From: Algoriphagus aquimarinus | Lineage (GTDB): Bacteria > Bacteroidota > Bacteroidia > Cytophagales > Cyclobacteriaceae | DNA: 64,000 nt | NCBI RefSeq assembly: GCF_900112005.1 | Contig: NZ_FOKK01000003.1 | Location: forward strand, 186,001 to 250,000 | Reading direction: 5' to 3' | Part shown: one piece after another, positions 403-5,931 of the stretch | Position numbering within the stretch: position 1 is the stretch's first letter | Layout: each line of letters starts with the position of its first letter | The notes under the pieces: model-generated | What the model was told of the DNA's origin: nothing | What the model saw: the letters and a program-made list of their open reading frames with translations, nothing else | Databases searched by the model: none | Made by a program: the position numbers and the translations under genes

Positions 403-2682
403 CTACTTCCTACCACTTGCAGTCAAAGCAAATGTCTTATTTGTTAGCCCATCGATTAACTCGTTGAGTACCCAGGTATTCTTCTTTTCGCCTTCATTCA
501 ACTTCCAGTTTTTCTTTGGGTCAGCTAACATTTTTTTCACACTTAGAGGAAAGGCATCAGCGGCACGTGCATCCTCCCAAATTCTTATTGTTTTGAAAAT
601 GGCATCTTTCTCAGGGCAGTTTTCCACATCTTTTTGGTTCAGGACTAGACTGTATGTGGTTCCAAGTCCAACAGATATAGCTTGTATGTGCTCATACTGC
701 TCTACTGTTGAGTTTGCGTTTATTGGAAAATTGCCTCCCATCCCTATAGGGAAAAAATTGGCGTAGGTAACATCCCGAAGATCTTTCCCCTGGCTTGTAG
801 TGCTGCCCCATTCCCTCGTTTCCACATCATATAGGTTTTTCCCTCCGCCTACATTCCAGATGCTTTGGTAATGCCATGATCCTTCTGATAAGGTGGCACC
901 AGTAAAACGAATAGTAGGAATGCCTAGGACTTCAGCCCTTTCAAACATTTTGCGGAAAAATCGCTTAGCAGAGTAATAGCCGTGTCCATTGTTAAATAGA
1001 AATTCTTGTCCATCAAAATCATAGTAGCCTAAGCCGTTTATAAAACAGACATCAGCATAGTATTCAGCAATTTTATCCTGGAGCTGCATATTGGGAATCA
1101 ACCCATCATAGCCATAATTCAGCGTAACCTGGAGCTTATAAATAGTGTCATTGGATTGATGTTCGGTTGCTGTAGTTTCCCAATATCCACGTTTTACATT
1201 CAAAAGTCGGTAGGGCTTTTCTTGAGAGACTCCAAGATAATAGATCAGCTCTTTGCCGATTTTTATCATGTTGAGGTTCTCGGCATGTCCTTCCCAACTG
1301 GCGATTTCCTCAAGATGGGTTGGGTCATCCACGATAAGAATGGTGTCAGTTTGACTAATGTTGTTCACCAATAAACGTTTCTGCTGATAACACAAACTGT
1401 CATTTGGTAGGGGGCTAGCATCTTTTGTTCCGGGAGCTAGTGCATTGGTTATCGGCGTTCTTCCTATGCTGATTCCATGTTTTGCTGCCATCTCCGAAAA
1501 CTCCTTATGGGATTTGTTTCCAGACGTTAACTGAATGGGCTTTTTCTCAAATTGTTTTCCGTCTAGGTAGCCTTCATTTCCACGATCGGGCTTTATAAAC
1601 CCTTGGTCGTACAAACTGATTGCCTTAAAACCCATTCTTGATGTATAAGAAATGATACTATCATTCAAGCTTCCATTTGTCATCGCATCAGGCACAAAAG
1701 CGCTCGGATCTTTCACCCATTTGCCATCAATTGTTGGATAAGGCAAGCCCTCTTTCAAAACAATGTCCTGAATCACATCCAGTAAGGCGGAACTGTCTGG
1801 GCTACCCCATAAAGCAATAGAAGAACCTATAAAATCCACACCTGCCAAGGGTTGAATTTCCAGATGGTTTGGTGTATTGGCTGGCATATTGGGAATAAGT
1901 GAATAATAAACTTCTCTCTCAAATGTCCTGTCTCTGGAGTGGTAATTAATAGAGATCTGGCCTTTTTCGTCGACTAAGGCAGAGTTACCATACATGATTC
2001 TGTAGTAGGGCTCTTTATGTGCGTAAAAGGCTACATCACTAATTCCATCTCCGCCAAGGGTGAAAATTTGCCCCTCATGCAAGGAGTCAGGAAGTGGGTA
2101 GATTTCCGGGTCAGGCGAATGAATTATGTACTGAAAAGGTGCTGCATCAGCTATAGTTTCAGAAGTGCCTCCAATCGTATTGTCATCCAGTGCAAGCATA
2201 CCAATAGCATAATTGACTACCGCACTTGTGTCTCGTGCAACTCCTATGATTTCTCCAAATAGGTTTGTGATATTCGTATGGTATGGTCCCCATTGGATAC
2301 CATCGATTTCATTTCGTGGACTAAGAGACTCTAGGGTGAATTTCAGGTATTTCTCTTGCGTCGATAAGAGGACTTGAGCAACTGAACCGTTGGAATAGCT
2401 TAGTGTAATGGAGCGATCTGCTTGATTGAACTTCGCATCAACAGGTTGATAATACATTTTCTTTTTGCCATCGTAGAGCTGAAGTAATGGTGATGGTTTT
2501 TCGAGAGGACTGAATTCCCGATATGGATTTTTTGAGATATTGACCATGCTGGTGATATAGCCCTTGGGGTTGATTTCAATTTTAAAATAGTCAGTAGAAA
2601 AACTGCCCTTATCGTCGTTTGAGCAATTGAAAAGTAAAATTGTGAAAAGTAGCATTAGTATATTTCTTGCTACTTTTTTCAT
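403..2682 (-). CDS. Large exported lipoprotein of unknown function, possibly a glycoside hydrolase
   Basis: About 759 residues. An in-frame ATG lies 21 bases further upstream (2703), but the ATG at 2682 gives a textbook lipoprotein signal: MKK, a hydrophobic stretch and Cys20 in LLFNC. The mature protein would sit in the outer membrane or periplasm. I do not recognise a named family. The N-terminal third looks like beta-sandwich sequence, and the middle and C-terminal parts look like a TIM barrel of a carbohydrate-active enzyme. A conserved-looking acidic stretch, YYDFDGQEF near residue 553, resembles barrel-strand catalytic motifs of glycosidases acting on complex glycans, but this is inference. 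It stands alone, with no SusC/SusD pair beside it in the window. Confidence 0.75.
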   Translation of the reverse strand: MKKVARNILMLLFTILLFNCSNDDKGSFSTDYFKIEINPKGYITSMVNISKNPYREFSPLEKPSPLLQLYDGKKKMYYQPVDAKFNQADRSITLSYSNGSVAQVLLSTQEKYLKFTLESLSPRNEIDGIQWGPYHTNITNLFGEIIGVARDTSAVVNYAIGMLALDDNTIGGTSETIADAAPFQYIIHSPDPEIYPLPDSLHEGQIFTLGGDGISDVAFYAHKEPYYRIMYGNSALVDEKGQISINYHSRDRTFEREVYYSLIPNMPANTPNHLEIQPLAGVDFIGSSIALWGSPDSSALLDVIQDIVLKEGLPYPTIDGKWVKDPSAFVPDAMTNGSLNDSIISYTSRMGFKAISLYDQGFIKPDRGNEGYLDGKQFEKKPIQLTSGNKSHKEFSEMAAKHGISIGRTPITNALAPGTKDASPLPNDSLCYQQKRLLVNNISQTDTILIVDDPTHLEEIASWEGHAENLNMIKIGKELIYYLGVSQEKPYRLLNVKRGYWETTATEHQSNDTIYKLQVTLNYGYDGLIPNMQLQDKIAEYYADVCFINGLGYYDFDGQEFLFNNGHGYYSAKRFFRKMFERAEVLGIPTIRFTGATLSEGSWHYQSIWNVGGGKNLYDVETREWGSTTSQGKDLRDVTYANFFPIGMGGNFPINANSTVEQYEHIQAISVGLGTTYSLVLNQKDVENCPEKDAIFKTIRIWEDARAADAFPLSVKKMLADPKKNWKLNEGEKKNTWVLNELIDGLTNKTFALTASGRK

Positions 2683-2895
2683 GAATAAGGGGGTGAAAAT
2701 CATGGTATTGAGAAGGGTGTTTTGTAATGTTTTATAATACCTCTACAGGTGCTCAATCAGACTTAAAAATTACTTTAAACTATAATAGGCGCTTAGTACA
2801 AGGGTTTTTGACTTCGTAAAGTAACCAAAATGAAAATAAAAAAAAGAGTCTACCAATCAGATGTTTTCATTGAAAACGATAGCTGAGTTGATGTC

Positions 2896-3179
2896 GATCC
2901 TGCCGTTGGCACTCTGGGTTAGCTTGTTGATTTTGAATCCCCGAATTTCGCTGCGCTGTATTCGGGGTTAGGACTGGGAATGCCGTTGGCATTCGAGGGT
3001 GATATTATGAGAGAAAAATTGGACTTGCTGGGACTTGATGTTCGCTTGCGGAGTGGTAAATATCTTGCCAACGGCAAGACCAATACTTGCCCAGAATGCA
3101 ATTCTGGGTTGATTAGGGGTTATATTTATTTGAGTGCCAAAGGCACGATCGGTAGTTCGAATTCTAATTTTTCTCTGCT
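2896..3179. repeat. Composite hairpin repeat, copy A (full length plus 29-bp tail)
   Basis: A 255-bp unit runs from GATC at 2896 to GATC at 3150, followed by a 29-bp tail (3151-3179) that copy B also has just before the transposase ATG. Six short stem-loops are visible: TGCC-GTT-GGCA (2901-2911), an 8-bp stem CCCCGAAT/ATTCGGGG (2939-2967), GAATGCC-GTT-GGCATTC (2978-2994), CTTGCC-AAC-GGCAAG (3064-3078), CCCAGAAT-GCA-ATTCTGGG (3090-3108) and GTGCC-AAA-GGCAC (3134-3146). The two ends are imperfect inverted repeats of each other. Likely a REP/BIME-like element mobilised by the transposase at 4196. Confidence 0.85.
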
Positions 3180-3209
3180 TTGAAACTTTTAAATAAAGTA
3201 CGATTCAAT

Positions 3210-3620
3210 CTACTTTTTCAGATACATTTCTGGAGTTAATACTGCCAGTTCACTTTTCTTATAATCTTTCATATTTCTTGTCAAGATGATTGGAATATCA
3301 CCTTGATTTAGCGCAGCGCAGTATTGTAAAGCATCTTCAAAATCTTTGAATTCTGAGTTTAAAGCAGCCATAACAACCTTCTTGTCCATAGCTGTTATCT
3401 CTATAATTCTTAAAAGTTGTTTTAGCTTTTCTATGATTACCTCATGCTTGGCGGTTTTGCTCAGAAGGTAATAGACATTGCTGATGATGACAGGTGTGGT
3501 GTAACCTAATAGTTGCTTTGACTCACAGCGAAGAAAAACCTCTGTTGCAAATTGAGCGAAGGGTTCTCGGTCAAAGAAAAAATCAAGAATAACATCCGAG
3601 TCTATCAGTACCTTGTCCAT
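3210..3620 (-). CDS. PIN-domain RNase toxin (VapC-like)
   Basis: 136 residues spanning a whole PIN domain. Acidic residues expected to bind Mg/Mn are in place: Asp7 and Asp9 in LIDSDVILD, Asp93 and Asp96 in DFEDALQ, and Asp119 after TRNMK. PIN toxins cleave RNA, usually specific tRNA or rRNA sites. The start ATG at 3620 abuts the stop of the upstream antitoxin gene without a gap, so the two are co-transcribed and probably translationally coupled. The pair lies between two copies of the hairpin repeat, which suggests accessory DNA. The RNA target cannot be predicted. It could be a solitary PIN nuclease, but the partner gene makes a toxin-antitoxin module much more likely. Confidence 0.85.
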   Translation of the reverse strand: MDKVLIDSDVILDFFFDREPFAQFATEVFLRCESKQLLGYTTPVIISNVYYLLSKTAKHEVIIEKLKQLLRIIEITAMDKKVVMAALNSEFKDFEDALQYCAALNQGDIPIILTRNMKDYKKSELAVLTPEMYLKK

Positions 3621-3872
3621 TTACAAATGCTTTTCTTCGAGGACTTTTTTTAGCTCTTCCTTGTAATCCAAGTCTTCGGGCATTTTAAAAGAGCCCTTCA
3701 ACGATTTGACGATAGGGGTAAGCTTAGGTTTATTATCTACGCTATTCTCCTGAGTCAGGCTTTTTAGGTAATTTTCAATGATATCAGAAAGGCTACGGTT
3801 TTTATCTTTTGCGTAATCCTTAGCTTTTTGAATCACATCCTGTTCTATGGTTAAGGTGAGTTTAGTATTCAT
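3621..3872 (-). CDS. Antitoxin, ribbon-helix-helix type (DUF6364-like)
   Basis: 83 residues. The N-terminal 45 residues fit a ribbon-helix-helix DNA-binding fold: a beta strand (KLTLTIEQ) followed by helices rich in Lys, with a SLSDIIENYL segment typical of DUF6364 antitoxins of the Bacteroidota. The Lys/Glu-rich tail (about residues 46-83) would wrap the PIN toxin and block its active site. It is the first gene of the pair and ends exactly where the toxin begins. An inverted repeat carrying two ACACGTGT sites lies about 28 bases upstream, as expected for an autoregulated module. Confidence 0.8.
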   Translation of the reverse strand: MNTKLTLTIEQDVIQKAKDYAKDKNRSLSDIIENYLKSLTQENSVDNKPKLTPIVKSLKGSFKMPEDLDYKEELKKVLEEKHL

Positions 3873-3900
3873 AAGCTGTTTTTTACAAATTTAACAAGAA

Positions 3901-3947
3901 AATATTACACGTGTGTACTATTGTATTCTTACACGTGTTATAATATT
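3901..3947. promoter_or_regulatory. Probable autoregulatory operator of the toxin-antitoxin pair
   Basis: Two copies of the 8-bp palindrome ACACGTGT lie at 3907-3914 and 3931-3938, 24 bases apart start to start. The flanks extend the symmetry: AATATT before the left copy and AATATT a few bases after the right copy (with a 3-base insertion). The site ends 28 bases before the antitoxin ATG (3872), so a bound ribbon-helix-helix protein would cover the promoter. Seen directly; the binding is inferred. Confidence 0.65.
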
Positions 3948-3957
3948 CATGGTTTTA

Positions 3958-4195
3958 GATCTCCAAATTTCGCTTCGCTGTATTAGGGGTTGGGAATGCC
4001 GTTGGCATTCAATGGTGATATTATGAGAGAAAAATTGAACTTGCTGGGATTTGATGTTTGCTTGTAGAGTGGTAAATATCTTGCCAACGGCAAGACCAAT
4101 ACTTGCCCAGAATGCAATTCTGGGTTGATTAGGTGTTATATTTATTAAAGTGCCAAAGGCACGATCGGTATTTCAAATTCTAATTTTTCTCTGCT
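3958..4195. repeat. Composite hairpin repeat, copy B (left end degraded), leader of the transposase
   Basis: Related to copy A from about 3958 to GATC at 4163-4166, then the shared 29-bp tail 4167-4195 that ends one base before the transposase ATG. The left terminal hairpin is missing and the 8-bp CCCCGAAT stem is broken (its two arms read CTCCAAAT and ATTAGGGG), while the GAATGCC/GGCATTC, CTTGCC/GGCAAG, CCAGAAT and GTGCC/GGCAC hairpins are intact. The tail differs from copy A at only two positions, so copy A looks like the same leader without its transposase gene. Confidence 0.85.
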
Positions 4196-4642
4196 ATGCC
4201 ACAGTCCCTATCCAAAGTGTATTTACACATAGTTTTTTCTACTAAGTATAGAAAACCACTTATTACCCCAGGTGCCCAGCCAATTCTTCATGCTTACATC
4301 GTCACATTGGGGGCAAATCTAGGCTCATTTACAGAAGATATTTATGCTAATCCAGATCACTTACATTGGCTTTGTACATTGTCACGGACTGTCACAATTG
4401 CTGATTTGATTCAAAAAATTAAAATATCAAGTTCTAATAAAATGTCTGAGATTGGCTTAAAAGGATTTCATTGGCAAAAAGGTTATGGTGCCTTTTCGGT
4501 CAGTCAGTCCAAAGTTGGTATTGTTAAAAACTATATCCAAAACCAGGAAGAACATCATCGGAAGCAATCATTCCAAGAAGAATATATCCAGTTTTTGGAG
4601 GAGTATAAGTTGGATTATGATCCGAAATATGTTTGGGATTGA
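4196..4642 (+). CDS. Small HUH/Y1 transposase (IS200-like, REP-associated)
   Basis: 148 residues, a single Y1_Tnp domain. The start is typical (SLSKVYLHIVFSTKYR), the metal-binding HUH motif is His55-Leu-His57 in PDHLHWL, and the catalytic tyrosine is Tyr113 in VKNYIQNQEEHH. Such enzymes cut and join single-stranded DNA next to hairpins through a 5' phosphotyrosine. Hairpin repeat copies lie immediately upstream (B) and downstream (C and D), which is the layout of a REP-associated tyrosine transposase or of an IS200-type element with hairpin ends. No accessory TnpB gene is present. The frame is intact, so the enzyme may be active. Confidence 0.9.
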   Translation: MPQSLSKVYLHIVFSTKYRKPLITPGAQPILHAYIVTLGANLGSFTEDIYANPDHLHWLCTLSRTVTIADLIQKIKISSSNKMSEIGLKGFHWQKGYGAFSVSQSKVGIVKNYIQNQEEHHRKQSFQEEYIQFLEEYKLDYDPKYVWD

Positions 4643-4661
4643 CCACTGCCAGTTTATTACT

Positions 4662-4766
4662 GATCGTGCCGTTGGCACTCTGGGTTAGCTTGTTGATTTT
4701 GAATCCCCGAATTTCGCTTCGCTGTATTCGGGGTTAGGACTGGGAATGCCGTTGGCATTCGAGGGA
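4662..4766. repeat. Composite hairpin repeat, copy C (left half only)
   Basis: Begins with GATC and the perfect GTGCC-GTT-GGCAC hairpin, continues through the CCCCGAAT/ATTCGGGG stem and the GAATGCC/GGCATTC hairpin, then stops matching after about 4766. It starts 20 bases after the transposase stop. The stretch TTTATTACTGATCGT just before and at its left end is shared, with one gap-free alignment, by copy D, so the pair probably arose by local duplication or by transposition into similar targets. Confidence 0.8.
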
Positions 4767-4823
4767 TTCGATATCTGATATTCTATGGTAGGTTAATAAC
4801 CATGTTTTGGCCACTTTATTACT

Positions 4824-5078
4824 GATCGTTCCGTTGGCACTCTGGGTTAGCTTGTTGATTTTGAATCCCCGAATTTCGCTGCGCTGTATTCGGGGTTAGG
4901 ACTGGGAATGCCGTTGGCATTCGAGGGTGATATTATGAGAGAAAAATTGAACTTGCTGGGAGTTGATGTTCGCTTGTAGAGTGGTAAATATCTTGCCAAC
5001 GGCAAGACCAATACTTGCCCAGAATGCAATTCTGGGTCTAAAAGAAGCGTGTTTTTTTAGAGTGTCAAAGGCACGATC
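4824..5078. repeat. Composite hairpin repeat, copy D (full length)
   Basis: A full 255-bp unit from GATC at 4824 to GATC at 5075-5078, the same length as the core of copy A. All internal hairpins are present; the right terminal hairpin carries a change (GTGTCAAAGGCAC). It lacks the 29-bp tail seen after copies A and B. It ends 20 bases before the stop codon of the next gene, so it also lies in the 3' region of that operon and could act as a transcript 3' structure. Confidence 0.85.
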
Positions 5079-5097
5079 TGTAAGAATCAATCATCAC

Positions 5098-5931
5098 TCA
5101 CCCCAAAATCTTATCAAACAACTGATGTGCTTGTTTCTCGGCTTGGGAAGAAAGAATCTTCTTTTCTGCTTTGAGCTCTTTTACCCAGTCTAGGTACTTC
5201 TTAGATACTTCCTGTTTGGTGCCTAGGAAATGTGTCAAAGACTGTAGCGACAGGTGATTGGAGTACCAAGGTTTGAGGTTGTTCTTCAGGATTCCGATTT
5301 CCTCATGTATTCCAGTGATGAAAATAGAGTTGAAACCCATCTGGATCAAGGTGTTTTCCAACATGATGATGGTTCGCAAACCTTCAAAAGTATCCTTCAA
5401 GGCTTTGCTGTCCATAGCGCCTTTATGGTCTTGATTGAAAAACTCCAGTTCTTCCTGAATGATCTGATTCACCGCGGTATGGATAGCCAGAGGTTTAATA
5501 CCTCGGCTGGCGGTCATGGCTTTTTGATGAAACTCATCCCAGCTTTTCAGTGTGCTGCCTACTATCAGATCAAAGGCATCGGTGTAAAGTTTTTTCTTAT
5601 ACTTATCCAGATGTATTCGATATCCCCCGTATTTGAAACCTAATTCTTCTTCGCGATCATTCAGGCTTTTTTCTGCGAGTTTGAAATGATGTATTTTCCG
5701 CAGGCTTCTCTTCATCTCTTTGAAATCCGAGAAGATATTAAAATTCAAGCCTTCGATTTCAAAGTGAACCTTTGCCATCAAATCTGCATAGAGTTCCAGG
5801 AACTCCATTTTCCCTAGAAGTTCTATTGCTTTCTTGGACTTGATCTGCTTTCCCAAAGCCAAAAACAGTGCTTTAGCCTCTTGGTGCTGCGATTCAAAAA
5901 GCTGAAAGACAGGGGATACTTTTGCCTGCAT
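5098..5931 (-). CDS. All-helical protein, possibly CHAD-like
   Basis: 277 residues, predicted cytoplasmic, almost wholly helical and rich in Lys and Glu, with no signal peptide. The segment from about residue 180 (KDTFEGLRTIIMLEN, then a second helix with conserved Glu and Lys) resembles the C-terminal half of CHAD domains, which bind polyphosphate, but the Arg/His clusters normally seen are weak here. The call is therefore tentative. It is the last gene of an operon with the Smr-domain protein (3-base gap) and the photolyase. Repeat copy D lies right after its stop. Confidence 0.45.
   Translation of the reverse strand: MQAKVSPVFQLFESQHQEAKALFLALGKQIKSKKAIELLGKMEFLELYADLMAKVHFEIEGLNFNIFSDFKEMKRSLRKIHHFKLAEKSLNDREEELGFKYGGYRIHLDKYKKKLYTDAFDLIVGSTLKSWDEFHQKAMTASRGIKPLAIHTAVNQIIQEELEFFNQDHKGAMDSKALKDTFEGLRTIIMLENTLIQMGFNSIFITGIHEEIGILKNNLKPWYSNHLSLQSLTHFLGTKQEVSKKYLDWVKELKAEKKILSSQAEKQAHQLFDKILG

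Follow-up and report, generated by a model that had tools for sequence, protein, structure and literature searches.

Repetitive extragenic palindromic (REP) sequences, bacterial interspersed mosaic elements (BIMEs) and REP doublets forming hairpins (REPINs) are dispersed intergenic inverted palindromes that frame a low-copy Y1 transposase of class 2, known as TnpA_REP or REP-associated tyrosine transposase (RAYT), and they have short stems, 3-nt loops and a foot 5' of the hairpin (PMC6006769, PMC8266576, accessible sections of both). The enzymes of E. coli, Stenotrophomonas and Marinomonas bind or cut REPs via foot, stem and loop, according to the accessible sections of one paper (PMC8266576). 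A different group of Y1 transposases, subclass 1.2 of Quentin et al. 2018, is marked by the motifs Y---Q--HH and WQ, a median length of 148 aa and 1.7 copies, and occurs in Cyanobacteria and Bacteroidetes; in the available portion of that survey it is scored "no" for REP and is said not to share insertion sequence (IS) properties (PMC6006769). Here we describe a gene with the signature of this subclass, tnpA, and the hairpin repeat units that frame it in Algoriphagus aquimarinus, within a 64,000-nt stretch of contig NZ_FOKK01000003.1 (positions 186,001 to 250,000, hereafter the window) from a 5.1-Mb genome in 39 contigs. We consider the units to be a REP/BIME-like, non-autonomous repeat family that is probably the cognate substrate of a low-copy subclass 1.2 TnpA, and give this reading a probability of roughly 0.65. 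An earlier note on this DNA had proposed a REP/BIME family moved by a RAYT; the data bear out a REP/BIME-like family in this Bacteroidota genus that is dispersed, lies mostly between genes and is linked to a Y1 HUH enzyme, but by sequence the enzyme is not a RAYT.

The locus lies between a gene at 403-2703 and another at 5098-5931, and contains, in order, unit A, a PIN/DUF6364 gene pair, unit B, tnpA, unit C and unit D, the four related copies that had been recognized in the window all being present as claimed. Unit A (2893..3154, plus strand) is a full six-hairpin unit whose likeness to B extends to about 3179; its hairpins H1 to H6 occupy 2900-2912, 2939-2967, 2978-2994, 3063-3079, 3090-3108 and 3134-3146, and its foot, GATCGGTA, follows H6 and runs to 3154. 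Unit B (3958..4170, plus strand) is without H1, and its right half stops 25 bp 5' of the start codon of tnpA (4196..4642, plus strand), which encodes a Y1 HUH transposase of 148 aa. Unit C (4658..4766, plus strand) consists of a left half only (H1-H2-H3), lies 15 bp 3' of the tnpA stop and is matched on the minus strand by the half-unit model described below, and unit D (4820..5082, plus strand) is again a full unit. Hairpins H1, H3, H4 and H6 are of the type TGCC-nnn-GGCA, and H2 and H5 of the type CCC(C/A)GAAT...ATTC(T/G)GGG. The pattern TACnGATCGTGCCnTTGGCAC, with up to 2 mismatches, has 5 matches in the window against 0 expected from shuffles, and when folded as single-stranded DNA units A and D reach z values of -3.9 and -5.4, each better than 200 of 200 shuffles. 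In window positions 2500-5500 Rfam gave zero matches, also with the threshold relaxed to E 1.

With six hairpins in two triplets, the elements are larger and more ordered than classical REPs, as had been supposed, although the finer description needed revision. Units A and D are both full units, but their common end is TAC-n-GATC rather than GATC alone, which sets the bounds given above; the ends are less than near-perfect inverted repeats, with mismatches in the end hairpins (A left GATCCTGCC, D left GATCGTTCC, D right GTGTC); and loops of three bases do not extend to H2, the loop of which has 13 nt. Compared with REPs, which span 20-40 nt or form a two-hairpin pair, the units are about 190-300 bp long, and whereas RAYTs have a Y---NP motif and a GT[AG]G foot, the enzyme here has Y---Q--HH and the foot is TACnGATC (comparison with the accessible sections of PMC6006769 and PMC8266576).

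The internal symmetry of the units could be examined with a covariance model, R1, which is the sole half-unit model and was built, like alignment A1, from the right halves (H4-H5-H6) only of 23 copies, two of the 23 rows having one mistyped base each. Requiring a strict GATC foot limited a unit finder to 14 units across 47 sources, and a collector for left halves returned no more than 4. The left halves are an independent test of R1, and on the opposite strand the model scores those of A, C and D at 57.5, 69.8 and 62.7 bits, and it also detects those of many other units. That right halves suffice to detect left halves in this way identifies the unit as two half-units of three hairpins each in inverted orientation, which gives quantitative form to the mirror-like hairpin order noticed earlier. 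Among 140 distinct half-units, in an alignment fitted to the model, 95.5% of cells were paired and 13 of 20 pairs showed change on both sides. Covariation in this model-fitted alignment was 0.325, compared to 0.117 in shuffled alignments and at most 0.086 with slid partners, and in the unfitted MAFFT alignment A1 it was 0.149 compared to 0.045. Two-sided changes were found in 339 cells of the 140 half-units and one-sided changes of the G-U type in only 49, a balance that fits a constraint on DNA better than one on RNA.

The flanks of the hairpins are also conserved. The tail consensus is GATCnGTA after H6 and CCnGTA after H4, with none after H5, and a GTA tail follows H6, H4 and H5 in 95, 88 and 18 of the 140 half-units, respectively. 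When the opposite strand is read, the 5' foot of H6 and H4 is TACnG(A/G)(T/C), as is that of H1 and H3 in the left half, and H2/H5 are without a foot. In H4 and H6 most loops read AAA, AAC, GAA or AAG on the given strand and hence are T-rich on the other, indicating that the polarity of the hairpins is conserved. The GT[AG]G foot occurred once among 150 half-units with five foot positions each, a count in which the own-strand 5' flank of H4 lies outside the alignment.

The tnpA product is assigned to subclass 1.2 TnpA_Y1 from the published motif table and its length, with the signature DHLH, WQ and YIQNQEEHH, and by the same motifs the adjacent gene does not encode a classical REP transposase (class 2, Y---NP, GTAG foot); Y---NP was not encountered in the window protein, which reads YIQNQEEHH. 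Pfam Y1_Tnp matched it at 73.1 bits and NCBIfam IS200 at 55.3 bits, barely above the cut-off of 55, and the NCBIfam REP_Tyr_transpos score was 22.6 bits, far under the cut-off of 80. The earlier identification as a RAYT is therefore not supported, given the signature, the family score and the lack of a GT[AG]G foot. The protein aligns with IS608 TnpA across HUH and Tyr, and its predicted fold (predicted local distance difference test score 88.8) resembles IS608 and ISDra2 TnpA at Z about 14 and, less strongly, a REP transposase (4er8, Z 10.8), so that it has the TnpA_IS200 fold, HUH and Tyr of the IS200/IS605 group. Most IS608/ISDra2 chains align with the one-chain model only to about residue 109, 2fyx reaches 147, and 4er8 is aligned over residues 5-132; these spans may be a hint of a tyrosine helix in cis. 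The Y, Q, H and H of the Y---Q--HH signature were invariant in 33 of 33 aligned sequences, an alignment that leaves out one relative (L036) with an internal stop. The nearest named relatives of the protein are from Algoriphagus, and the genome itself has a single copy of tnpA, its next relatives there being 32-37% identical.

Membership in subclass 1.2 is consistent with the 148-aa length, the 1-2 close copies per genome and the occurrence in Bacteroidota, as well as with Y---Q--HH and WQ; the locus differs from the published description in that the HUH motif reads DHLH instead of DH[IV]H and, above all, in that conserved and dispersed hairpin units frame tnpA, so the published trait of no REP does not hold in this case (accessible part of PMC6006769). 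Another group found in Bacteroidota, subclass 2.6 or RAYT group 5, resembles the present system in having atypical secondary structures without GTAG, with copies elsewhere in the genome, but its protein is of class 2 (YIH[QN]NP), with a median of 179 aa, and belongs to another branch (PMC6006769, accessible part).

The repeat and the gene are paired across the genus. Homologues of the tnpA product at 60% identity or more were found in 19 of 72 genus genomes, at 1-2 such genes per genome; those of G060 and G081 are partial, that of G059 is split over two frames and that of G073 has one stop. All 19 of these genomes carry the repeat, compared to 16 of the 53 without a homologue (Fisher 3e-8, relatedness uncorrected), and the association persists among the 52 genomes that are at least 90% complete (Fisher 1e-4). 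Half-units adjoin tnpA in 18 of the 19 homologue genomes, the exception being A. locisalis (G071). The 19 framing loci come from these 18 genomes, with both G076 copies included, the second close copies of G035 and G078 left out and G059 approximate, and the orientation of the half-units around tnpA is identical in all 19. Upstream, a half-unit on the strand of the gene lies 24-33 bp from the start in 17 loci (the outliers, G065 and G075, having 85 and 94 bp), and downstream an inverted half-unit follows the stop by 5-19 bp in 18, that of G065 overlapping the stop by 3. One downstream neighbour gene is common to 13 of 25 locus rows (11 genomes) and the remaining rows are elsewhere, suggesting that tnpA has often been inherited in place and has sometimes been relocated.

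These data bear on the possibility that the locus is an insertion sequence of the IS200/IS605 type (as IS608 and ISDra2), with hairpin units as its ends and the scattered units as remnants like miniature inverted-repeat transposable elements (MITEs), which we regard as unlikely. The TnpA does belong to the IS200 branch in sequence and fold, hairpin-guided single-strand chemistry is expected of it, gene neighbourhoods vary among some lineages, so tnpA has relocated at times, and the TAC at the unit ends resembles the IS608 target, TTAC. However, each genome has only 1-2 close tnpA copies, and the A. aquimarinus genome one, where many near-identical copies would be anticipated; the location of the gene is often shared, as in the 13 of 25 rows with a common downstream neighbour; units without a gene are dispersed; and the half-units that frame tnpA are inverted, which, if they mark the ends of the element, would set it apart from IS608, where a single strand holds the hairpins of both ends. 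In archaea, the palindrome-associated transposable elements (PATEs) of Haloquadratum are palindromic elements linked to IS200-type transposases.

The units are not confined to the tnpA locus. The A. aquimarinus genome (G000) has 18 DNA-level matches; 14 of these, spread over 6 other contigs, are outside the window locus. Exact outer hairpins number 13 in this genome, compared to 0 for a reversed control pattern. R1 matches were present in 35 of the 72 genus genomes, with as many as at least 59 per genome; because no more than 59 candidates were scored in each genome, these counts are lower bounds. Outside the genus R1 matched in 0 of 56 genomes, and of 59 order-level genomes G000 alone matched (0 of 2 for the other genus members). 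Spread of the repeat without its transposase, which had been named as evidence against the association, is thus seen within the genus, in the 16 of 53 homologue-free genomes, but not beyond it. In a non-random sample of 44 loci (38 from G021 and G019 and 6 from G000), 40 are outside open reading frames (ORFs) of at least 120 aa, and among the four that fall within an ORF, one (L027) covers masked sequence; the expected dispersed intergenic copies therefore do exist. Genes around the loci are convergent in 18 cases, tandem in 21, divergent in 0 and undetermined in 1.

The absence of any of the 39 scorable loci from between divergent genes is what might be expected if the units were host-serving structured elements (3' mRNA hairpins, a terminator or a nucleoid-protein site) that recombination has spread, tnpA being a hitch-hiker at a place rich in repeats. 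In keeping with this, the C25 and C37 units come soon after an intrinsic terminator, as judged by eye, and many genomes keep units without tnpA. The halves are nevertheless strand-symmetric, the excess of two-sided over one-sided G-U type changes is more DNA-like than RNA-like, and the constant spacing and orientation around tnpA across several neighbourhoods would be unexpected for a hitch-hiker, and we hold such a host function to be slightly less probable still than an insertion sequence.

Comparison of orthologous sites revealed either gain or loss of units at each single site, together with tandem growth. Such sites hold none, one or three units. At the C25 site there are 3 units in G000 and G062, 1 in G071, and an internally deleted unit in G028, and G093 holds a right half; R1 had no match in 7 of the 11 genomes compared besides G000 (G076, G017, G059, G077, G019, G018 and G066); by eye, a shrunken remnant is visible in G076 and about 13 nt of the left end in G017, with none seen in the other five. 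Because unit plus flank is repeated in the G000 C25 array, the array grew in tandem. The C37 site has units in G000 and none in its close relative G028, with no match in G059 and one weak match in G062. At the window site, G062 has two left halves and a full unit, and neither tnpA nor the toxin-antitoxin pair. The C11 unit is absent at the sites in G010, G061, G016 and G028, with no R1 match in three and a weak one of 24 bits in G028; since the flanks of the empty C11 sites differ by further repeats, we claim no exact target site. The C17 gap in G076 and G062 had no R1 match, and flank queries for C5 and C17 found no clear conserved neighbour pair in G028.

Other repeats were observed beside these units. 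In G021 and G019 (L177-L216) the dispersed piece has conserved arms outside the unit, for example CTTGACTATG and CTCATAG. A CGCGAAGGACGCGAAG-type repeat lies within the spacer of the G000 C25 array (L025:2522-3374) and recurs next to the units at C11 and C17. At the C11 locus of G000 (L026:2389-2562), a repeat of about 155-170 bp containing GGTCGGAAGACCGATGACCGAAGACCGAAG is 97-99% identical in G000, G076 and G093, an identity across species that suggests recent movement, and had no Rfam match. An Rfam match to the Acido-Lenti-1 RNA (37.8 bits, gathering score 37) lies at L026:3226-3271, about 150 bp from the C11 unit.

Several observations weigh against the interpretation of the units as the substrate of TnpA. 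No clean target-site junction was found at the empty sites compared, the repeated piece in G021 and G019 is about 560-590 bp and so longer than the unit, and the C11, C17 and C25 units of G000 share flanking sequence, so another mechanism may carry units. It is on these grounds (homology of non-orthologous copies across 560-590 bp, the common flanks, and the copying of unit plus flank at C25) that the units could be carried along in a larger mosaic, mobile or recombining, without movement by TnpA, but in G000 the units of the window, C5 and C37 differ in their flanks from the C11/C17/C25 group, so that the part shared there is approximately the unit itself, and we think this very improbable. 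Sixteen genomes bear the repeat without a close homologue, including G019 (at least 40 matches) and G021 (at least 42), two of the four most copy-rich, and no remnant of a close homologue was found near orphan units in the loci searched. The co-occurrence counts ignore phylogeny. The homologues in G073 and G059 are broken, and that in G033 (L102:1501-1944) reads DHIN, the second His of HUH being gone. Finally, the A. locisalis tnpA (L034) is flanked by a different hairpin family, with 5 matches, all at the tnpA locus; the only two R1-like matches (about 31 bits) are at least about 500 bp away, and R1 units occur elsewhere in that genome. As a candidate for a dispersed family, the A. locisalis hairpins were rejected, 5 of 5 matches being at their own tnpA locus.

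Our preferred reading remains that the units are the substrate of TnpA, and their anatomy suits a REP-type Y1 enzyme because the hairpins are polar, the foot is conserved, the half-units form inverted pairs and they frame the gene. In each half-unit triplet, H1 and H3 (H6 and H4 when the opposite strand is read) share a foot, a TGCC/GGCA-type stem and a T-rich 3-nt loop, as strand-specific recognition by a Y1 enzyme would demand, and two inverted half-units form the unit, like REP and inverted REP (iREP) in a BIME or REPIN. In the mechanism we propose, when the region becomes single-stranded, for example as lagging-strand template, TnpA may bind the hairpins of one strand, read the foot (GATC at H1/H6) as a guide, cut near TAC and rejoin the ends. 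Such cutting and rejoining could excise, insert and amplify units, mostly 3' of genes, while tnpA would stay framed by half-units.

Between units A and B are a PIN-domain toxin-like gene (3210..3620, minus strand; Pfam PIN_3, 57.1 bits) and a DUF6364 antitoxin-like gene (3621..3872, minus strand; Pfam DUF6364, 99.7 bits), a pair around which, along with the transposase, the earlier note had described the repeat family; PADLOC gave no match for any of the three locus proteins. The equivalent locus in G093, G082 and G019 has the PIN/DUF6364 pair without an R1 unit, and no fragment of this transposase was found there. We therefore rejected the pair as cargo of the system, and it is probably a bystander. 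The limits of a block resembling that of G093 (window 3185-3956) coincide almost exactly with those of A and B, placing these units at its borders.

Hairpins also accompany more distant tnpA genes. In 41 other relatives, stems of at least 7 bp occurred at 3.49 per kb in tnpA-side gaps compared to 1.08 in other gaps, and two or more hairpins in 21 of 66 tnpA-side gaps compared to 0 of 32 control gaps, a control that depends on simple ORF calls and few (32) gaps. In the named subset outside Algoriphagus (18 of the 41) the densities were 3.45 and 1.11 per kb (p 0.011). By the density rule there were no hairpins at L044, L051, L111, L112 and L113. R1 matched at E of 0.01 or less in 17 of 51 loci without a close homologue, the matches being mostly weak and the E-values rough. 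We consider it an even question whether the IS200 branch saw a second origin of REP-like systems, through domestication of subclass 1.2 TnpA enzymes as a whole, in Bacteroidota and beyond, each framed by its own cognate multi-hairpin arrays, with the six-hairpin mirror unit as the elaborate Algoriphagus form.

Individual loci among these relatives were also inspected. Upstream of a subclass 1.2-like tnpA in Desulfonema magnum (L050:2635-2963) are tandem 69-bp units, each with an 8-bp-stem hairpin, CCCGGCAATTTATTGCCGGG; the A. locisalis hairpin query had 0 matches in this species, a result uninformative on Desulfonema's own hairpins. A metagenome-assembled genome (MAG) of Ignavibacteria has a repeating three-hairpin array upstream of a subclass 1.2-like tnpA (L038:2587-2945), and in a Bacteroidales MAG a relative with one internal stop still has R1-like hairpins downstream (L036:3001-3444).

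Among the matches listed in the open-access literature, we found none that describes these units or reports REP-like sequences with subclass 1.2. The accessible parts of PMC3733652 and PMC12306157 do not mention Algoriphagus, and RayT genes are reported near a resistance gene in Chryseobacterium, with no repeats mentioned in the available part of that article (PMC11194056). The units described here are a likely substrate for a transposase subclass of open function that was published as being without repeats. If this is true, single-strand transposases would have given rise to domesticated REP-type systems on more than one occasion, and a foot different from GTAG can also function. Since the stems covary across species, the rules of recognition may be readable from the units themselves.

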